Part shown: positions 24,091 through 39,996 of the stretch, in pieces
How the letters are laid out: each line of letters starts with the position of its first letter
How positions within the stretch are numbered: the stretch's first letter is position 1
Source of the DNA: Vulcanimicrobiota bacterium
GTDB lineage: Bacteria; Vulcanimicrobiota; Vulcanimicrobiia; Vulcanimicrobiales; Vulcanimicrobiaceae
NCBI GenBank assembly: GCA_027315245.1
Contig: DAHUYK010000156.1
Location: 1-39,996 of the forward strand
Reading direction: 5' to 3'
Length of the DNA stretch: 39,996 nucleotides
The notes under the pieces: generated by a model
What the model was told of the DNA's origin: nothing
The model's input: only the letters and a program-made list of their open reading frames with translations
Databases searched by the model: none
Made by a program: the position numbers and the translations under genes

Positions 24091-25260
24091 GTGGCCGCAA
24101 GCGGAACGCTCTATGAAGAGACGCGCCTCACCGTCCTCGACGGACTACGCGGCGTTGCGGTTCTGCTCGTCCTCTGGTTCCACACATGGGAGATTTCGTG
24201 GCTGCCCGCTCCCGCGCCGTGGCTGCAGTTCCTTCCGGAGACCGGGTTCATCGGCGTGCACCTCTTCTTTTTCCTCAGCGGCTTCGTCATCACGTATCCA
24301 TTCATCCGCGCGCACGTGCGGCGGACACGCTCGCCGTCATGGGGTCACTTCGCGTGGAGGCGCGCGCTCAAGATCATGCCGTCCTACGTGCTTTCCATCG
24401 CCGTCGCCTATGCGATCGGGTACGCACAGCGGCAGGACGCCGCTCCGGCGGCCCAAGCCGTCGTGGCACACCTGCTGTTCATTCACACCTGGTTTCCGTC
24501 GCTCTACGGCTCGATCAACGGCGTCCTGTGGACGCTGGCGGTCGAGGTCGAGTTCTATGCGCTTTTCCCGCTTCTATGGTGGTGCTTCGCGCGCGCACCG
24601 TGGATGACGGCCGCAGCCATGATCGCCATCGCGATCGCGTGGCGCTACGCTCTCTCTGCGTGCTGTTACCACACGTTCTTTCCGTGGTACAGCGAAAATC
24701 TTCCGGGTTACCTTGACATCTTCGCGTGCGGCATGCTCGCTTCGTGGATCTACTGCCGCTACGCTGGCGGCCGCAATCCACTGCGACCGGCAGCGCCGGC
24801 GTTGTGGCTGGCAGGCGTCGCAGGCACCGTTGCGCTCATGGAGGGGCTCTATGCCTTTCGCCTGCACGACCAGTGGACGGTCGTTTGGCAAGTGTGGCGC
24901 CGTCAGTGGTTCGGCATGGCCTTCGCCGCCGTCGCGCTCGGAGCGCTGTGGAGTCCAAGGGTTCTACAACGCGTTCTCGCAAATCGCGCCTTCGTCTTTC
25001 TCGGCACGATCTCGTACAATCTCTATCTCTATCATCAAATGTTCGAGCGCGAGCTGCTATGGCTGCATGTTCCCGGCTACCGAGGCGATCCGCACCACGA
25101 CCCGCACTGGCAGATGACGTATACGCTCGTCGCCTTCAGCCTTACGATCGTGCAGGCCGCGCTCGTGACGTATCTCGTCGAACGCCCGCTTCTCCGATTG
25201 CCCGATCCGAGCGGATTCGGGGCACTCTTCCGATCATGGGTCAGCGCGGCCAAGCGATAA
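24091..25260 (+). CDS. Acyltransferase 3 (OafA/YrhL-like) membrane protein
   Basis: LTVLDGLRGVAVLLVLWFHTW, GFIGVHLFFFLSGFVIT, NGVLWTLAVEVEFYALFPLLW. Confidence 0.93.
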   Translation: MAASGTLYEETRLTVLDGLRGVAVLLVLWFHTWEISWLPAPAPWLQFLPETGFIGVHLFFFLSGFVITYPFIRAHVRRTRSPSWGHFAWRRALKIMPSYVLSIAVAYAIGYAQRQDAAPAAQAVVAHLLFIHTWFPSLYGSINGVLWTLAVEVEFYALFPLLWWCFARAPWMTAAAMIAIAIAWRYALSACCYHTFFPWYSENLPGYLDIFACGMLASWIYCRYAGGRNPLRPAAPALWLAGVAGTVALMEGLYAFRLHDQWTVVWQVWRRQWFGMAFAAVALGALWSPRVLQRVLANRAFVFLGTISYNLYLYHQMFERELLWLHVPGYRGDPHHDPHWQMTYTLVAFSLTIVQAALVTYLVERPLLRLPDPSGFGALFRSWVSAAKR

Positions 25261-25679
25261 TCGAAACGATCGTCGCGACGGCCATCGTCGTTCTCGTGCT
25301 CGGCGCCGCACTTTCGGCCGCCATCACCGCTAGCGCGCATTTCGGATCCGACCCCGCACGGACGGCATTAGACGCTGCGCTGCAGCGAGAGATGCGTACG
25401 GCGCGTAACCTCGTCAAATACGAACATGCGAGTTTGGCGCCGGCATCGATCGAGACGACCATACCACTCGCCGACGGGTCGCCGCTGCCGGCCACGCTGC
25501 ACCTGACGCTCGTGACGCCGTCGCCGGGCGGCATCGTCGTCACGATTGCCGCACAGGCAACGTGGAACGGCGCCGTAGAGCACCGGTCCATGACGAGCGG
25601 GCTCCTCGTTCCAGCACCTCTTCCCGGGACGTCGTCGACCCTTCCCGGCCTTGCACCCGCACCGACCGGCGCGCCGTAG
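25236..25679 (+). CDS. Prepilin-like protein
   Basis: MGQRGQAIIETIVATAIVVLVLGAALSAAITA: Gly then Glu at +5 and hydrophobic helix; overlaps acyltransferase 3' end. Confidence 0.65.
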   Translation: MGQRGQAIIETIVATAIVVLVLGAALSAAITASAHFGSDPARTALDAALQREMRTARNLVKYEHASLAPASIETTIPLADGSPLPATLHLTLVTPSPGGIVVTIAAQATWNGAVEHRSMTSGLLVPAPLPGTSSTLPGLAPAPTGAP

Positions 25680-25688
25680 AGAACCGCG

Positions 25689-26354
25689 TTGCTGCTGCGC
25701 GCACTCTTCGTCTCGTTCGCCTGCATCGTCGTAGCTCAGACGATGCTGCAGGCCGCTGCGGCGCTCGCGCTCACGGCGCTGCACCGGCAAAGCATCGCGG
25801 CCGCGTCCAGCGCCTTCGTCGACGCGACGCAGCGCGCGCAGGCGTACATTGCGAATGCAATCGTCCAAAACGCGCCGCTTTCCGGCGCTGTGCCGTCGCC
25901 GGAACCGACGTGCGTCGTGTCGGGCGACGCCGGTTGCACGCTCGTCGCGCACGAGACGATCGTCGTCGCAACGCCGGAACCCACGGCGTGTCCGCCAGCG
26001 GCATGCTACGGGTACGTGCAGTCGAACGATGCCGTCGGCGAAGGGCGCGCCGTTGCAACGATCGCCGCTTCGATCTCCGATGCAGCCGGCGAACAACTTG
26101 CGGCACGTGGCGGTAGCGTCGTCTTTCGCACGCTGCGCGTCGCACCGTACGCAGTCGCCGCGGGAGCGACCGACGCAACGCTCGACGACGGGGAGAGCGG
26201 AGCCGGAGACACGGGCGGCATAACCGCCGGCGTTTCCTCCGGAACCCTCATCGAGGTCGTCTACCGCAACGCAGCGAGCGGAGCGCTCATGCCGGCAAAT
26301 GTCTGGACCGGCTTAGCGCCTGGCTCGGCGCCGCCATCGGCTTGGAGTCCCTAG
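25689..26354 (+). CDS. Hypothetical secreted protein with N-terminal TM helix, possibly pilus-assembly (PilX-like)
   Basis: TTG start; hydrophobic N-terminus; abuts prepilin-like ORF. Confidence 0.5.
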   Translation: MLLRALFVSFACIVVAQTMLQAAAALALTALHRQSIAAASSAFVDATQRAQAYIANAIVQNAPLSGAVPSPEPTCVVSGDAGCTLVAHETIVVATPEPTACPPAACYGYVQSNDAVGEGRAVATIAASISDAAGEQLAARGGSVVFRTLRVAPYAVAAGATDATLDDGESGAGDTGGITAGVSSGTLIEVVYRNAASGALMPANVWTGLAPGSAPPSAWSP

Positions 26355-27055: not shown

Positions 27056-28572
27056 CGCACGCCGTCCGCAACGAGGTCTTCGCGGGCCTCGTTGCGTTCG
27101 TTAGCCTCATCGGGTTCTTCGCGGCGCGCTGGGGCTCAGGCAACCTGCGCCACCTCGACGAGTGGGCGCTCGGGGGGCGTCGATTCGGAACGATCGTCTC
27201 GTGGTTTCTCATCGGCGGCGACGTGTATACCGCGTACACGTTCATCGCGGTCCCCGCGCTCGTGTACGGCGCGGGCGCACTGGGCTTCTATGCGGTGCCC
27301 TATGCCGCGATCGCCTATCCCTTTGCTTTCGTCATCCTCTCGCGCTTTTGGAACGTCGCGCGCGCACGCGGGTACGTCACCTCGGCTGACTTCGTGCGCG
27401 AGCGTTTCGGAAGCCGTAGCCTCGAGATGGCGATCGCCGCAACGGGCGTGCTCGCATCGCTGCCCTACATCGCGCTCCAAGTCGTCGGCATGAAGGCCGT
27501 GCTCGTGCACCTCGGCGGCGCATTTGCCGTGAGCAACGGCGAGCTCGCCCTCACGATCGCATTCGTGCTTCTCGCAGCGTATACGTTCACGAGCGGACTG
27601 CGGGCTCCGGCGGCAATTGCGTTCGTCAAGGATACGCTCATCTACGCAACGGTCGTCGCCGCGATCGTCATCATTCCCGCGAAGCTCGGCGGATGGGGTC
27701 ACGTCTTCGATGCTGCTGGGGCAGCGCTCGCTGCGCGAGCGAAGCCAGCCTCTATTCTCCTCGCTCCGGACCAGCAGATCGCCTACGCGACCATGGCGTT
27801 TGGATCATCCCTTGCGCTCTTCGTCTATCCGCACTCAATAACGTCGGTGCTCGCCGCGAAATCCAGGGCGGTGGTCCAGCGCAACATGGCACTGCTTCCG
27901 ATCTACTCGGTGATGCTCGGTTTTCTCGCGCTACTCGGATACTGTGCGGTCGCCGCCGGCATTTCGACGAAGGACACGAGCAGCATCATCCCGCTCTTGC
28001 TCGACCGCTACTTTCCACCTTGGCTCTCAGGCGTGGCGCTGGCCGCAATCGTCATCGGAGCGCTCGTTCCGGCGGCGATCATGGCCATCGGTTCGGCGAA
28101 TCTCATTGCGAACAACATCTTTCGCGGATTCGATTCCGGCCGCGCGCACGGTGACGCGCATCTCTCCAAGCTCCTGACGCTGAGCATGAGCGCGTTCGCG
28201 CTCTGCTTCGTCATCTTCGTGCCGACCGCGTATGCAATCAACTTTCAACTGCTTGGCGGCATCTGGATGGTGCAGGTCCTGCCCGCGTTCGCGCTCGGCC
28301 TGTACACCCGCGCGTTCAATCCGGCAGCGCTCTTCGCCGGCTGGCTCGCCGCCATGACGGCATCGACCGCGATGGCCGTCGCAACGGCCGCCGGCGGCCA
28401 CGGCATCTCGCCGAACATGACGTTCGTCTTCTTCGGTCAGCCGGTAACGGCGTTCATCGCACTCTACGGACTAGCGATCAATCTCGCCGTCTGCAGCGTC
28501 CTTTCGCCGGTTTTTGCTCTGCTGCGCCTCGGCAAAGGGACCGATGCAACGACCGCCGCCGACTACGCTTGA
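27052..28572 (+). CDS. Sodium:solute symporter family protein, copy 1
   Basis: EWALGGRRFGTIVSWFLIGGDVYTAYTF; YVTSADFVRERFGSRSLE; many TM helices. Confidence 0.9.
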   Translation: MTHAVRNEVFAGLVAFVSLIGFFAARWGSGNLRHLDEWALGGRRFGTIVSWFLIGGDVYTAYTFIAVPALVYGAGALGFYAVPYAAIAYPFAFVILSRFWNVARARGYVTSADFVRERFGSRSLEMAIAATGVLASLPYIALQVVGMKAVLVHLGGAFAVSNGELALTIAFVLLAAYTFTSGLRAPAAIAFVKDTLIYATVVAAIVIIPAKLGGWGHVFDAAGAALAARAKPASILLAPDQQIAYATMAFGSSLALFVYPHSITSVLAAKSRAVVQRNMALLPIYSVMLGFLALLGYCAVAAGISTKDTSSIIPLLLDRYFPPWLSGVALAAIVIGALVPAAIMAIGSANLIANNIFRGFDSGRAHGDAHLSKLLTLSMSAFALCFVIFVPTAYAINFQLLGGIWMVQVLPAFALGLYTRAFNPAALFAGWLAAMTASTAMAVATAAGGHGISPNMTFVFFGQPVTAFIALYGLAINLAVCSVLSPVFALLRLGKGTDATTAADYA

Positions 28573-30094
28573 AGTGAAGGCCGCTCTTGTGCTGGCGCTC
28601 GGAGCGCTCGCCCTGCACGCCGTAACGGCGGGGCGCTACGGATACTTTCGCGACGAACTGTACTTCATCGCGTGCGCCCATCATCTCGCGTGGGGCTACG
28701 TCGATCAGCCGCCGCTCGTCGCGTTCGCTGCATGGCTCGCACAGCCGTTCGGGTTCGCACTCCTTGCGCTTCGCGCGGCGCCCATGCTCGCGGCCGCGCT
28801 GACCGTCGTCACGGTCGTTGCGCTGACACGCGAGCTCGGGGGCGGTCGCTTTGCGCAATGGACCGCCGGCGTACTGACCCTCCTTCTTCCTGCGTATCTG
28901 CTCCTCGGCAACACCCTCACGACGACATCGTTCGAACCGCTTACCTGGACGCTCACCGTGTACTGCGTGCTCCGTCTCGTCCGCAGCGCGCAGCCGTACT
29001 GGTGGATCGCGCTTGCGCTCGTCGTCGCGTTCGGACTCTACGGCAAATACACGATCGCGCTCTGGGTCTTCGCTCTCGTCATCGGGTTGCTCGCGACGCC
29101 GCAGCGGCGCGTTCTGGCAACGCCGTGGTCCGCCGGCGCCGCCGGGATCGCGCTGCTCCTCGTCACCCCGAACATCCTCTGGCAGGGTGCGCACGGATGG
29201 CCGATGCTACAGGTGTTGTCCGGAGACGCCGCGCACCGTCCCGAGCTGCAGAACGGCGTGCTCCTGGACGCGCGCGGATTCTTCACGAACACCGCGGCCT
29301 TTCTCGTGGAGCAAATGCTCGTCGCAAACCCGCTCGCAGCGCCGATCTGGGCTGGTGGCATCATCGCGCCCTTCTGCTTGCGGTCGCTCAAGGCTGCGCG
29401 CTTCATCGCGATCGCCGCCCTCGTCGCCTTCGCCGTCGCAATCGCCGCAGAGGCGAAAGGCTACTACGTCGCCGGCCTCTACGGCTCGCTCGTCGCTTGC
29501 GGCAGCGTTTGGCTCGAGCGCTGTGCGCTGTCGGTTCGGCGCACACTTGCCAGCGCAGCAGTTGCCTGCGGGCTCGTGGCGATGCCCTTCGCCATTCCCG
29601 TGCTGCCGGTGCAGGGGCTCGTCGCGTACAGCGCCGCACTCCACTTGACCGGCAATGCCGGTTCTCAGCAACATCTCGTGCAACCGGCCTTTGCCGAGGA
29701 GTTCGGCTGGAATCGCTTAGCGCGTGACGTCGCGCGCGTCTACGCGGCGCTTCCGCCTTCGCAGCGGCGCGCTGCAACCATTTACGCCGACACGTACGGC
29801 GACGCCGGCGCGCTTGACTTCTTCGGGCCGCGCTATCGTTTACCGCCTGCAATCTCGTCGCAGAACTCTTACTACCTGTGGGGAACGCACGGCGCGAGCG
29901 GACGCGTGCTCATCGCCATCGGTGCGACGCGCATCGCCTACCTGCGCCGTTACTATCGCCGGGTGCGGCTCGTCGCCACGTCGTTCGATCCGTATCGCTG
30001 GATCGTCGAAGGTCCCGCGCCGATCTATGTCTGTACGCAACCGATCGCGCCGCTGCAGTCGATCTGGCCCCATCTGCGCTGGTACGGTGCGTAG
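28544..30094 (+). CDS. Glycosyltransferase family 39 / ArnT-like membrane transferase
   Basis: GYFRDELYFIACAHHLAWGYVDQPPLVAF...LALVVAFGLYGKYTIALW. Confidence 0.85.
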   Translation: MQRPPPTTLEVKAALVLALGALALHAVTAGRYGYFRDELYFIACAHHLAWGYVDQPPLVAFAAWLAQPFGFALLALRAAPMLAAALTVVTVVALTRELGGGRFAQWTAGVLTLLLPAYLLLGNTLTTTSFEPLTWTLTVYCVLRLVRSAQPYWWIALALVVAFGLYGKYTIALWVFALVIGLLATPQRRVLATPWSAGAAGIALLLVTPNILWQGAHGWPMLQVLSGDAAHRPELQNGVLLDARGFFTNTAAFLVEQMLVANPLAAPIWAGGIIAPFCLRSLKAARFIAIAALVAFAVAIAAEAKGYYVAGLYGSLVACGSVWLERCALSVRRTLASAAVACGLVAMPFAIPVLPVQGLVAYSAALHLTGNAGSQQHLVQPAFAEEFGWNRLARDVARVYAALPPSQRRAATIYADTYGDAGALDFFGPRYRLPPAISSQNSYYLWGTHGASGRVLIAIGATRIAYLRRYYRRVRLVATSFDPYRWIVEGPAPIYVCTQPIAPLQSIWPHLRWYGA

Positions 30095-30129
30095 TCTCAT
30101 CGCCGCCCGCACGGGGCACTCGTGCTGGC

Positions 30130-32169
30130 ATGGGTGCGCGGGAACGGGGGTTTACGCTCCTCGAGCTAGCAATCGCGGTCGGCATCCTCGCATTGCTCGC
30201 TGCGGCGGGAGCATGGGCGTTCTCGTTGCACCCGGACGCACTCGCATCAGCCACCGACGATGTCGACGCGGCGCTCGCGTCGGCGCGCGCAATCGCAAGC
30301 GCTAGCGGCAACGGCGCAACGATCGTCTTCGCGCCGAGTACCGCGGGCGCCGGCTTTTCCGTGCGCGTCTACACCGGGCGTCCCAATGCGCCCGGCGCCG
30401 TCGTCCCGACGAATGCGATGCCGGTCGTCGCCGATGCGAACGTGCATGAAGCCAAGCTCGGCGATCCTCCGTTCGCGATCTTCATCGACAGTGCGGGCGA
30501 CGCGAGCGGGCAGGCAGCCTACCCTGCATTCGACGCAGGCGGCGCGGCGCGATTCTCCGTCATCGCGCAAGAGCCCGCCTGTCCGTCGGCCGGTTTCGTG
30601 CTGACCATCTCGATCGTAACGCCGCCGGTATCGCGCACGCGCGCGCTGCCGTGCCGCAACGCGTTGAGCACTGCGGGATCGCCCGATCCGTCGCCGACGC
30701 CGAACGTCCCAATCGTCACGCCGACCGCCTTGCTCTTTCACTGGCCCGCCGACGTGCAGCAACCCTTCGTCGCGACGGAGTGGGGATACACGCACTGGTT
30801 TGCTTCCTCGGCCGGTTTCGCGTGCGGTAACGGCGTCGCCGCCTTTCCGAACGTGCTGCCGTCACCGTACAGCGAGCCGCCGTCTTTGGCCGAAGCCGGA
30901 CTCGCTCCGTCGCCGCCGCCGGACGCTCCGTACTCGTATCCGAACTCCGGCGGCGCGAGCATGAACGACGCGCCCGCTGCATTTCCGCTGCAGCCGCAGG
31001 GCGCCGGGCTCTGCAGCGCCACCGTTGAAGATGCCTTCGGCCAGAGCGCTTCCACGGCTATCGCCGTAATGGGATGGCTCACCGCGACGTACGGATCGAC
31101 CGCCGTAACGCACGCGGCGGGAACGCTCGCGGTTCCCGCGACCGCTTTGCCGGCAGCGGGAAGCTCGGTCACGATCGCACTCGCAAAGAGCTTCGACAGC
31201 GCAGCGCTCTCACCGCAAGTCGCCTTCACTGGTTCGAGCGCCGTTCCGTGCGCCGCGGATATCAACGTGAGCAACGCGGCGGGTTCCACGCCTCCGACCC
31301 GTTCCTCGGCGCCGTCAACCGCGAGCCTTACGTTCACGGTCGTCGCATTGCCGCCGTCCGCTATGAACTGCACGGGCGTCATCTTCAATCACTACGCCGA
31401 TGGGGGCGCGCCCTCGGATGCAGCCGCGGAAGCCGGCGAAGGCGTGTCGTTTACGCTCTCGCTCGCACCGCCGACCGGTGCCCTCTCGACACTGGGAAAG
31501 ATCGTCTTCTGGCTGCCGTCCGGGAGCGGCGGCGCCTGCTCGTACGCACAGCTCTACTTGGAGAACGGAAACGCCGACGCGAACGCACCGAACTCGACCG
31601 ACGCATTCAATGAAACCGACGCAAACGGCTGCGTCACGAACGATACCGTGAAGCTTTGGGCGACCGAGCCGAACTACAGCGGCGTATTCGATCTCGTCAT
31701 CGGCAGTTGCGGACCATCCATCAATCCGGCGGCGCTCTCGTGGAGCGCCTCTTCCTCGACGGCCCTCGCGCCGGCATCGTCCACGCCATCGTGCCTGTTA
31801 GAAGTGCAATCGACGGATCGCTCTCTCTCGAGCGGGGGAGCACGCTCGGTCAGCGCCATCGTCAACTCCTGCTCCGGTGCGACGATGTCGGTTGGCATTG
31901 GGAGCGCTTGTTCAATCACCCTCCCGCTCTCGTGGGGAGAGCCACCGGATTGCACCCCGGGTGGTTCTGGTGGGGAATACGTAACCGTCAAGGTGACCGA
32001 AGATCCCACTCCCATGCTCGGTACGTTGACGCTCGTCGGTTCTACACAAACGGAAGGCACGTACCTTTGGACGAGGACGGCGCCTGGGACTGAAACGATC
32101 TCGTATATCGAACTCGACGAAGTCTGCCATCACACGGCATCATCCCATGGCACCATTACGCTCAACTAG
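30130..32169 (+). CDS. Giant GspH-like pseudopilin: prepilin N-terminus plus large Cys-rich ectodomain (679 aa)
   Basis: ERGFTLLELAIAVGILALLAAAGA class III signal; PDPSPTPNVPIVTPT linker; long Ser/Thr/Ala-rich beta-type sequence with many Cys. Confidence 0.8.
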   Translation: MGARERGFTLLELAIAVGILALLAAAGAWAFSLHPDALASATDDVDAALASARAIASASGNGATIVFAPSTAGAGFSVRVYTGRPNAPGAVVPTNAMPVVADANVHEAKLGDPPFAIFIDSAGDASGQAAYPAFDAGGAARFSVIAQEPACPSAGFVLTISIVTPPVSRTRALPCRNALSTAGSPDPSPTPNVPIVTPTALLFHWPADVQQPFVATEWGYTHWFASSAGFACGNGVAAFPNVLPSPYSEPPSLAEAGLAPSPPPDAPYSYPNSGGASMNDAPAAFPLQPQGAGLCSATVEDAFGQSASTAIAVMGWLTATYGSTAVTHAAGTLAVPATALPAAGSSVTIALAKSFDSAALSPQVAFTGSSAVPCAADINVSNAAGSTPPTRSSAPSTASLTFTVVALPPSAMNCTGVIFNHYADGGAPSDAAAEAGEGVSFTLSLAPPTGALSTLGKIVFWLPSGSGGACSYAQLYLENGNADANAPNSTDAFNETDANGCVTNDTVKLWATEPNYSGVFDLVIGSCGPSINPAALSWSASSSTALAPASSTPSCLLEVQSTDRSLSSGGARSVSAIVNSCSGATMSVGIGSACSITLPLSWGEPPDCTPGGSGGEYVTVKVTEDPTPMLGTLTLVGSTQTEGTYLWTRTAPGTETISYIELDEVCHHTASSHGTITLN

Positions 32170-36392: not shown

Positions 36393-37214
36393 TTACGGAG
36401 TCGGCGCTCCCGTACATGCCGGGGTCCCACCGCTGAGCGGACAGGGCGTCGGCACCGACGAGTCGTTCGCGGGCGTGATCGCGCGCACGTCGGCGGCAAT
36501 CGTCGCGTTCGCCGAACCGCGGTCATTATCCCAATCCGGAATCGTCGGGTAGAGCGGCGTTGCGCTGGCTTCCGCCGCGGAGATGTCGTTCATGAGCTTC
36601 GTCTCCTGCGACGTTGGCGAACTGCGCAGCTTCGACGTCCATGCCGCGATCGTATTGAAGTTCCAGTCGTCGAACGCGGTGTCGCTCTCGTTCTGCGCGT
36701 TCAAGAAGACGTAGAGCGCCGCTGCTGCCGTTGCGTTGTCGGTCGTGTCTGCGGAACCGGTACCCAAGTAGAGATTGTGGGACGATTGACTGCCGAGGAA
36801 GACGATGGTCCACGCTTCCTGGTGAGTCGTCGCGTTCGCGCCGATGACCATGTAGTTGCGACCCGGAACGATCGTATACGTTGGGTTCGGCGACGGCGGA
36901 ACCGCCGTTGCAGATGTGGCGATCGTGAAGTTGCCGCCGCCGTCGGCGGTCGTCGTTCCCGCTTGCGCGGAACAGCCGCAGGTGTAGACGACGTTCGCAT
37001 TCGCAAGCGCACTGCCGTTCGCCGATACCGTGCCGGTGATTCCGGTGCTCGGTGGAGACGTCGTGGGCGGATTCGTCGGCTGGCTCGTGGGCGGAGTGCC
37101 TCCGCCTCCGCCGCCCCCGCCGCCTCCGCTGCCCCCGCCGCCGCATGCAGCAAGCGCCGCTACGAGTGCGGCGATTCCGGTGAAGAGCGCGATGCGTGCT
37201 TTCGCAGTTCCCAT
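36393..37214 (-). CDS. Lipoprotein with poly-Gly linker and carboxypeptidase-regulatory-like domain
   Basis: Signal peptide with lipobox LAAC, GGGGSGGGGGGGGGG tract, ITGTVSANGSALANANVVY...TTTADGGGNFTIA. Confidence 0.75.
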   Translation of the reverse strand: MGTAKARIALFTGIAALVAALAACGGGGSGGGGGGGGGGTPPTSQPTNPPTTSPPSTGITGTVSANGSALANANVVYTCGCSAQAGTTTADGGGNFTIATSATAVPPSPNPTYTIVPGRNYMVIGANATTHQEAWTIVFLGSQSSHNLYLGTGSADTTDNATAAAALYVFLNAQNESDTAFDDWNFNTIAAWTSKLRSSPTSQETKLMNDISAAEASATPLYPTIPDWDNDRGSANATIAADVRAITPANDSSVPTPCPLSGGTPACTGAPTP

Positions 37215-37323
37215 TGCTTTAAACTCCGCGACGAAAGTAAGACAGCAGAGATCATCGCAGATGCAGACGGCGGCAACGAGGCCCGAGCGTCCCTCCACCC
37301 AAGGGAAGGGCGGGAACGATGTA

Positions 37324-39996
37324 TTAGGACGGCGAGGGCAGCGGCGACGGCTTCGACGGGACGATCGGCGAAGCCGGCGCTGTGCCGAACTGCGGACGGA
37401 TCATGTAGATCCCGAGCGTGCGCGTATAGTTCAGCTCCGGTACGCTTGCGCCGTCCCAGCCGCGTTGCGCAAGTTCCGCCGCGGTCGCTCCGGCGACGCG
37501 TCCGCATTCCAGAAGCGCCCCGAGCGTCGCGGGATCGCCGGGGTCGAGCTCGTACCACGTGCCGGCCTTCGCGACGTGCGCCGTAATCGTAAAGCTCGGC
37601 GCCGCCTTGCCTGCTAAAAAGTGGGCTCGCAGCTCGCCGATGAGCTCCACGGCCGTATCGTGCTCCGCCCCCGAGCACGCGCCGCCGCTGCGCACTTCGA
37701 AGGCGTTGCTCGGCGGTGCCGACGGCAAGACGTACACACGGAAGTTCTCCTGGCCCGGCTGCAGGCGCCGCGGCGCAAAATAGAGTCCGACCGACGGCAT
37801 GAACTCTATCTGGGGCACCATGAAGAGCTGCGTCTGCGGCTCGTAGAGATGGTGCGCGGCGATCTCGCCGGGGGTTGCGCGGTGCACGCTGAGGCACCCG
37901 ACGATCGGTCGCATGCGAGCGAAGGTGCGCGGCGTCACGGTGATCGCATACGCCGCTCCTAAGCCGTGGTATTCAAGCGTTGCATCCGGCACGGACGGCG
38001 CCGGCATCGTCGCCGGATAGCCGCTCGCCGACTTGGCAGCCTCGATGCGCGTTGTGAACGTAGCAAGCGCCGCTGCAAGCTGCCTCGCGTAGACGGCATC
38101 GCTTGCGCCACAGAGCGCTCCGCCGTTCTTCAGCGCGAAGGGTTGCGCCGGCGCGCTTGCGGGCAGTGGGGTGAAGACGTCCCGCAAGGGACCTCGCCCT
38201 GGGCCCGCGCCAGGACGTCCGAAGAACATACGTGGCCCGCGGTGTTCCGTCTCGGTTGCAAGCGCAGCCTGTGTCGTCTGCGGGCGAGCTCCTTGCCCGA
38301 ACGCCACCGTGTACGTTACCGAATACTCGCGCGGCTGCAGCGGCCGCGCAAGGTTCGGCAACACGCTGCCGCCCTGCGTGACGTACGGAACTTCCCACAT
38401 TGGGCTCGTAAAGACGCCACCGTAGGCATTCGTGACGTTGCTGGCGATCGCCGTCAGCGTTCCGTGCTCCAAGCTCACGCTCACGCCACCGTCCAGCGTC
38501 GTGTAGGCCGGCAGATGCTGGAAGTTGTTGCTGCCAGTGTACTGCGCATCGAGCAGATACTCGAATGCGGAACGGGGCGCTTTGTAGTCGAGGGTCATAC
38601 CGGCGCGGTTGAGCGGCACGTTGGGAATCTGCTTGCCCACAAGGATGAACGAGTACGGGTTGTCGATGCGCGGATCGACGGAGAAGACCGTCGCCTGCGT
38701 TAGATTATAGAACGGCTGCACGACGAGATCACCGAGCGTCAGGTACGAGGTGAGCTCGACGCCTTGATAGACGCGGCGCGTTCCCCCGATCGGCGTGTTG
38801 AAGTACAGCTGCGTCGCCGAAAACGGCGTTCCGGGCGGCGCGTTGCAGCCCCCGAGCGAATCCCAGATCGGCTGCACGAGCGAAGGATACGACGGCGGAA
38901 CGACGCCCAGGGCCGTGAGCACGGAGCCATTCACCTCAACGGGCAGGACGACGTCGTTCTCGACCTGCCGGTAGAGCGAGAGCGAGATATTGCCGCCGGA
39001 GAGCGTGTGCGTGTAGCTCGCGCGTAGCGAGGTGGAGTTGCTTGCCCCGGGCTGGTCGCCGGGAGCCTGTCCGTACGCGACGTTGCCATAGCAGTCGAAC
39101 TGCAACGACGCGGGATCGGTAAGAATCGTCTGCCGGAATCCACCCGCAGCGACGCCGCCCAAGGAAATGGATGCAGCGTACGTATCGCGCGGCGTCGGCC
39201 GCCACGTCGCGGCGGTCGTCCCGAGGAACGTCGACGGCGCGTACGATGCGTGGCTGATACCGAGAAGCTCGTTCAACGTCAGTTCGTCGCTCGAATGAAC
39301 CGTGTCGCTTATCTGCAGCGCACCGTACGACGATTGCGTCGCGCCGCGGTAGTAGGGAAAGGCTTGCGGCACGAGCGGCGTATTCGTATGCGAGTCCGTC
39401 GTACCGTATGCTTGGATACCGAACGTGTGACGCTGCCGCGCCGGAAGCGTCGCATCGACCGACCAACCAAAGGTGCCGCCTCCGGACGAGAAGCCCGTCG
39501 GCTCGGGAACGCCCGCGACGTAGCGGTTCAACTCGTTCAGGTACGTCTTCGAATCCATGCCGTAGATCGAGGCCTGCACCGTCGTCGCGCCCAGGAGTGC
39601 ATTGTCGGTCAGCGAGTACATGTTGAAGTCGCTCTCGTTCCCGTTGTTCGGTCCGTAGCCGCATGGCGTCGCGCCGTTGAGACGCAGGCAGACGAGACCG
39701 GTCGCGCGCGTGGAGTTCATGAACGTTGCGATGAGCGTCTGCGCGTCGCTGAAGGCATAGTGGAGCTTGACGAGATCGCCGCCGATCGTGCTCGCGCCGT
39801 TATGGATGTAATCCAGCCCGCTTGCGTCGAGATACCGCTGCCCGTCGACGAGGCTCGGGTTGTAGCGGTCGGTCGTCTCGACCGCTACGCCAAGCTTTCC
39901 ATCGGATCCGGTCTCCGCCAGCGAGTAGTTGTAGCGCCCGTACGATCCAGCCGAGAGCGTCGCGTATGTCAGCCAGCTCAGCGTCGGCTCCAGCGT
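37324..39996 (-). CDS. TonB-dependent receptor beta-barrel (5' end beyond window) with C-terminal extension
   Basis: ORF open to window edge (DLVKLHYAFSDAQTLIATFMNS...); barrel-like alternation; last strand near YSVTYTVAFG, then ~300-aa extension. Confidence 0.82.
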   Translation of the reverse strand, partial: TLEPTLSWLTYATLSAGSYGRYNYSLAETGSDGKLGVAVETTDRYNPSLVDGQRYLDASGLDYIHNGASTIGGDLVKLHYAFSDAQTLIATFMNSTRATGLVCLRLNGATPCGYGPNNGNESDFNMYSLTDNALLGATTVQASIYGMDSKTYLNELNRYVAGVPEPTGFSSGGGTFGWSVDATLPARQRHTFGIQAYGTTDSHTNTPLVPQAFPYYRGATQSSYGALQISDTVHSSDELTLNELLGISHASYAPSTFLGTTAATWRPTPRDTYAASISLGGVAAGGFRQTILTDPASLQFDCYGNVAYGQAPGDQPGASNSTSLRASYTHTLSGGNISLSLYRQVENDVVLPVEVNGSVLTALGVVPPSYPSLVQPIWDSLGGCNAPPGTPFSATQLYFNTPIGGTRRVYQGVELTSYLTLGDLVVQPFYNLTQATVFSVDPRIDNPYSFILVGKQIPNVPLNRAGMTLDYKAPRSAFEYLLDAQYTGSNNFQHLPAYTTLDGGVSVSLEHGTLTAIASNVTNAYGGVFTSPMWEVPYVTQGGSVLPNLARPLQPREYSVTYTVAFGQGARPQTTQAALATETEHRGPRMFFGRPGAGPGRGPLRDVFTPLPASAPAQPFALKNGGALCGASDAVYARQLAAALATFTTRIEAAKSASGYPATMPAPSVPDATLEYHGLGAAYAITVTPRTFARMRPIVGCLSVHRATPGEIAAHHLYEPQTQLFMVPQIEFMPSVGLYFAPRRLQPGQENFRVYVLPSAPPSNAFEVRSGGACSGAEHDTAVELIGELRAHFLAGKAAPSFTITAHVAKAGTWYELDPGDPATLGALLECGRVAGATAAELAQRGWDGASVPELNYTRTLGIYMIRPQFGTAPASPIVPSKPSPLPSPS

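Follow-up and report, generated by a model that had tools for sequence, protein, structure and literature searches.

A giant minor pilin with exchangeable ectodomains, probably a modular subunit of the type IVa pilus in Eremiobacterota

The 679-residue pilin encoded in the 39,996-nucleotide stretch of Vulcanimicrobiota DNA analysed here (the window) is most plausibly a modular minor pilin of the type IVa pilus of its genome, carrying a binding module at or near the filament tip; we put the probability of this reading at roughly 0.7. The gene lies at 30130-32169 on the plus strand (ATG at 30130, stop codon at 32167-32169), just as the original prediction had it, and the same frame is open further 5', to 29878; we place the start at 30130 because the leader motif, the relatives and a conserved upstream element agree there. 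The class III leader peptide MGARERG (30130-30150, +), followed by FTLLE, lies in a region recognised by both Pfam N_methyl (residues 4-26; 25.8 bits against a cut-off of 21.2) and NCBIfam TIGR02532 (GFxxxE; above cut-off), which bears out the canonical prepilin N-terminus first described. Cleavage would fall after G7, which, like E12, is invariant in an alignment of 31 relatives. The protein thus has the features of class III prepilins, namely a short basic leader with a terminal glycine, FTLxE and a hydrophobic helix (the last seen in the structural model), and a peptidase of family A24, the prepilin peptidase family, is encoded in the host genome (G000; 2.1 Mb, 96% complete).

The pilin module (residues 1-180; 30130-30669, +) comprises about 175 residues rather than the roughly 100 originally proposed, as judged from the alignment of 31 relatives and from the long helix and sheet of an AlphaFold2 model computed from an alignment of six sequences; across 31 sequences C151 is invariant and C175 nearly so. 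Short relatives of about 140-180 residues stop shortly past C175, the second cysteine, and because these pilin-only forms end there the graft point can be placed after C175 independently of structure prediction. A linker of low pLDDT, SPDPSPTPN (residues 181-194; 30670-30711, +), leads into an ectodomain of about 490 residues, in agreement with the predicted extra domain of more than 450. Its conserved part, D1-D2 (residues 195-448; 30712-31473, +; alignment of 18 relatives), includes confidently modelled beta strands at about 310-448, with pLDDT mostly 69-86 across residues 311-450; the earlier description of the ectodomain as beta/Ig-like is supported for this region, and for the remainder weakly. 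Model confidence is low over much of residues 177-304 and the whole of the variable C-terminal part (residues 449-679 plus stop; 31474-32169, +; pLDDT below 50), and residues 425-679 modelled by themselves gave no usable fold (mean pLDDT 40). Every segment of the protein is nevertheless under purifying selection, with dN/dS of 0.18-0.23 over residues 425-679, so the tail is not spurious; the concern that the C-terminus might be disordered or spurious is answered for its coding, but no fold could be predicted for residues 449-679.

The protein was also predicted to be Cys-rich, and its cysteines are present and seemingly paired, but the enrichment is mild (14 in total, or 2.1%, 12 of them in the ectodomain). 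Their number in the ectodomain is even in 21 of the 21 relatives with the same ectodomain, which looks like full disulfide pairing, with about one bridge per domain. Searches of Pfam, NCBIfam, PHROGs and PDB sequences gave no family match for the ectodomain. Foldseek with the full model returned generic tandem Ig-like proteins only (TM about 0.1-0.2 by query length), which we did not take as homologs.

Relatives of the giant pilin were found by tblastn in 62 of the 99 genomes of the family, same-genus copies being 60-62% identical across nearly their full length; those in the named collection belong throughout to Candidatus Eremiobacterota, and a search for plasmid-borne relatives gave no match. 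Homologs ending in the same domain, for which the original prediction had called, exist: 21 proteins share this ectodomain, and a D1-D2 profile detects it in about 30 of the family's genomes, while beyond the family it gives one clear match and a few weak ones. One ORF (L070:8285-9838, in G053:C3) bears the D1-D2 ectodomain but lacks an obvious pilin N-terminus; the full protein is encoded elsewhere in the same genome. Within this one Eremiobacterota family the pilin module occurs either without an ectodomain or with one of three mutually unrelated types (groups of 21, 3 and 3 proteins). On a tree of the pilin module the ectodomain labels are clustered (4 changes against a shuffled mean of 12.2), the one short sequence inside the large group, from locus L073, sitting on a very long branch whose position is unsure; because the ectodomain groups and the pilin-only forms cluster, we conclude that different lineages put different modules on the same pilin.

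This arrangement, in which a linker joins a pilin module to an additional C-terminal module, is that of the modular pilins; Pfam, NCBIfam and PDB sequences yielded no recognised functional domain in the added module, and the published description of modular pilins leaves room for modules so far absent from databases (PMC8179133). An alternative that we consider unlikely is that the ectodomain serves only to initiate or stabilise the pilus and has no binding partner outside the cell. Sets of minor pilins do prime other type IVa pili (PMC7541494), and the pilin-only relatives imply that the core task needs no ectodomain, but the swapping of unrelated modules on one pilin is easier to reconcile with variable ligands than with a structural task common to all.

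The type II/IV filament machinery on which the original prediction depended is present in the genome, as a type IVa locus on another contig (C96). This contig encodes PilB, a PilT-family ATPase (343 bits against a cut-off of 319), PilC/GspF, a sigma factor, a GspG/PilA-like pilin, a prepilin peptidase, PilM, PilN, a weak PilO/GspM and a secretin, so that PilB, PilT, PilC, PilD, PilM, PilN, PilO, PilQ and PilA are all represented, with PilO and PilQ matched weakly or below the family cut-off. Additional secretin, ATPase and peptidase genes, on contig C73, resemble a locus of the Tad type. Neither locus is linked to the giant pilin gene, whose neighbours vary among genera. PilB is encoded in about 27 of the 30 genomes that carry this ectodomain; we did not accept this co-occurrence as proof, since the association across genomes rests largely on one genus, g5, which lacks both the giant pilin and PilB (p 0.38 without g5), and PilB is missing from one genome (G065) that is 96% complete and encodes the giant pilin. 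A search for PilY1 found no match, but its control was silent as well, and absence is therefore not claimed. Also within the pilus locus (L087:4796-6062, -), a CcdA/DsbD-looking membrane protein and a TPR-like protein were noted by eye; these are possibly linked to disulfide formation in pilins.

It is improbable that the protein is instead a pseudopilin of a type II secretion system, its ectodomain picking up or expelling secreted cargo. The PilB, PilC and PilA of the locus do score about equally on the GspE, GspF and GspG models, but the PilT-family retraction ATPase scores above its cut-off and PilM/PilN accompany it; type II systems are not known to have either. A cultured member of the Eremiobacterota, moreover, forms type IV pili (PMC9758169). 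It is very improbable that the ectodomain binds DNA for import through a competence pilus, the receptor role that has been proposed for ComZ of Thermus thermophilus. ComEC occurs in 10 of 11 genomes tested and large pilins have precedent in that role (PMC6561018), but ComEC is also found in genomes without this pilus (G010, G018), and the ectodomain is strongly acidic (35 Asp+Glu against 8 Lys+Arg) and acidic in all relatives too, which speaks against a DNA receptor.

The assignment to a minor-pilin set comes from locus L073 of a relative (G027), where four consecutive genes encode a W-like, a V-like and an X-like pilin and a shortened version of the giant one. These are paired by tblastn with four in the host genome, W on contig C133, V and X in the window, and U, the giant pilin; the set W-V-X-U is thus a single operon in G027 and scattered in the host. 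The V-type minor pilin (MGQRGQAIIETIVATAIV..., 147 aa; 25236-25679, +) was identified by comparison with the L073 operon (E 0.001, a weak match, at the same position), and the X-type, GspK-like one (221 aa, start codon uncertain; 25689-26354, +) by its homolog in the L061 and L073 minor-pilin operons; neither matched Pfam or NCBIfam. The letters follow type IVa usage by position and mutual similarity, and profile matches are not their basis. The giant pilin is the fourth member beside J/W, I/V and K/X in the operon, its type being assigned by elimination; because a GspH or FimU profile match is missing from those listed for it, 'U-type' is a label and makes no claim of membership.

In the window, X and U are separated by genes for a DUF4870-like protein, an SSF transporter and a PMT_2 glycosyltransferase. 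The last (28514-30094, +) ends just 5' of the putative giant pilin promoter, and in nine loci, from several genera, a relative of it precedes the giant pilin gene in the same orientation; the enzyme may glycosylate the pilin, which is rich in Ser, Thr and Pro. A lipoprotein-like gene (cluster c4; L039:6907-7884 and relatives) lies convergent and just 3' of the giant pilin in 11 loci. Elsewhere in the window are a TonB-dependent receptor beta-barrel protein (37324-39720, -) and, in the adjoining gene (36393-37298), a protein with weak similarity to CarboxypepD_reg.

Upstream of the giant pilin lies a putative promoter (30094-30120, +), consisting of GTCT (30094-30097), 16 nt and GGGCACT (30114-30120), followed after 9 nt by the ATG; it is common to the relatives and to unlinked pilin genes, and GGGCACT also stands 9 nt 5' of the V-type start (25220-25226, +). 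The consensus for pilin genes is GTCC-N16-GGGCACT, usually with the start codon 9 nt further on. Of 33 U-type genes, 24 have the pattern GGG[CT]A[CT][CT] no more than 40 nt from the start, 21 of them at exactly 9 nt, whereas among 600 other predicted genes of these loci only 10 have it; since the 33 genes are related, they are not independent. The stronger point is that the element recurs in front of the non-homologous V, W and pilA genes; it singled out the W-type pilin in two genomes. At 12 of 35 sites, those of pilA and W genes among them, the block from -20 to -17 has the sequence GTCC. A genome-wide search, confined to the exact pattern GGGCACT-N9-RTG and to two genomes, gave three matches in the sister genome G084, all pilin genes, and seven in the host, of which three are pilin genes; the same pattern reversed, as a control, gave 9 and 3 matches. 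In four g12 loci (L049, L054, L046, L055) GGGGAAYA replaces GGGCACT and the GTC block is retained, and the sigma factor of these genomes may have shifted its preference.

That GGGCACT is a translation signal rather than a promoter is doubtful. The distance of 9 nt to the start codon, fixed in 21 relatives, would suit such a signal, but at pilA the element stands 22-34 nt ahead of the start codon, from which a Shine-Dalgarno-like GAGGAGG separates it in the host genome, and the second block, GTCC, keeps a fixed distance as a -35 element would. A sigma-54 reading of the GGCAC element was rejected, since sites viewed by eye had no fitting -12 element at the required distance.

A candidate reader of the element is encoded within the pilus locus itself: a sigma-70 family gene (L087:6360-7109, -, on contig C96), conserved in five genomes. 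In four of the five genomes checked (G000, G084, G066 and G074) the gene is flanked by pilC and pilA, and it is found, in G042, where the pilus locus is split, near pilB/pilT. Its product scores 39.8 on region 2 (cut-off 24) and 24.0 on region 4 (cut-off 24.1); the general sigma-70 model is above cut-off and SigBFG is the best match (118.8 against a cut-off of 234). SigB-type promoters read roughly GTTT-N14-17-GGGTAT, a form to which the pilin element appears close, and this SigB/F/G-like sigma factor is probably what reads GTCC-N16-GGGCACT.

On the preferred reading, that of a modular minor pilin, the N-terminal helix would anchor the prepilin in the inner membrane, and the prepilin peptidase would remove the leader after G7, a step proposed because motif and enzyme family are both present. 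Gene content suggests that the giant pilin, together with W, V and X, would start or cap a filament built by PilB and PilC and retractable by the PilT-family ATPase. The module of about 490 residues, presumably too bulky for the filament body, would be exposed at or near the tip and bind a surface or ligand, as the architecture, the exchange of modules on an orthologous pilin and the precedent of modular pilins suggest. Since a bulky C-terminal module has been modelled as clashing in the filament body (PMC8179133), a place at or near the tip is likely, and a flexible linker would make one in the body possible. Modular pilins are known as adhesins (PMC8179133), and adhesion is the most likely role; a binding protein tethered to a filament, perhaps a tip adhesin, as first envisaged, stays the preferred reading. 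The sigma factor of the locus would probably activate pilA together with the dispersed genes for minor pilins by way of GTCC-N16-GGGCACT promoters, from which the minor-pilin mRNAs would be nearly leaderless.

What had been put forward as a candidate for an undescribed extracellular system accordingly appears as a type IVa pilus subunit of a published design, the modular pilin, known from more than 1,200 proteins in 264 architectures (PMC8179133). Among its closest parallels are PilB and PilC of Streptococcus sanguinis (PMC8179133, PMC9934059), which share with it a class III leader, a small pilin module, a short linker, a bulky C-terminal module and the company of other pilin modules in one filament; unlike them, the giant pilin has no recognised vWA or lectin domain, belongs to Eremiobacterota and to a W-V-X-U set, and has its modules swapped within one family. 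The type IVb minor pilins CofB and TcpB (PMC8179133) likewise have extra beta domains missed by recognised family models, whereas the machine here is type IVa-like and no sequence match to them was seen. ComZ (PMC6561018) is also a large tip-type pilin with a big beta domain, but one inserted in the pilin sheet, where that of the giant pilin is appended at the end and acidic. PilY1 systems (PMC7541494) similarly present a tip function through a minor-pilin complex; here the large module belongs to the pilin itself.

The giant pilin is, in sum, an undescribed family or branch of the known modular pilins, with an unclassified ectodomain; a search of the open-licence literature turned up no account of it. 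What is newest in the finding is the apparent dedicated regulon: in the same literature we found no sigma factor in a type IV pilus locus serving scattered minor pilins, the closest case being SigF and pilA of the cyanobacterium Nostoc punctiforme (PMC6495340). There an alternative sigma factor likewise has a very small regulon around the major pilin, but no SigF consensus was found, whereas here the element covers minor pilins too and the pilus locus itself contains the sigma gene. Tentatively, the family may tune the tip of its type IVa pilus, perhaps without PilY1, by swapping ectodomains on one minor pilin, its scattered pilin genes held together by the sigma factor. The shared element offers a cheap and specific finder of divergent minor pilins that family libraries overlook, and one pilin with no module or any of three forms a natural series that tests how type IV pili gain functions. 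Because a cultured Eremiobacterota relative moves by type IV pili (PMC9758169), the pilus idea is open to testing, and it would show how a mostly uncultured phylum makes contact with surfaces.
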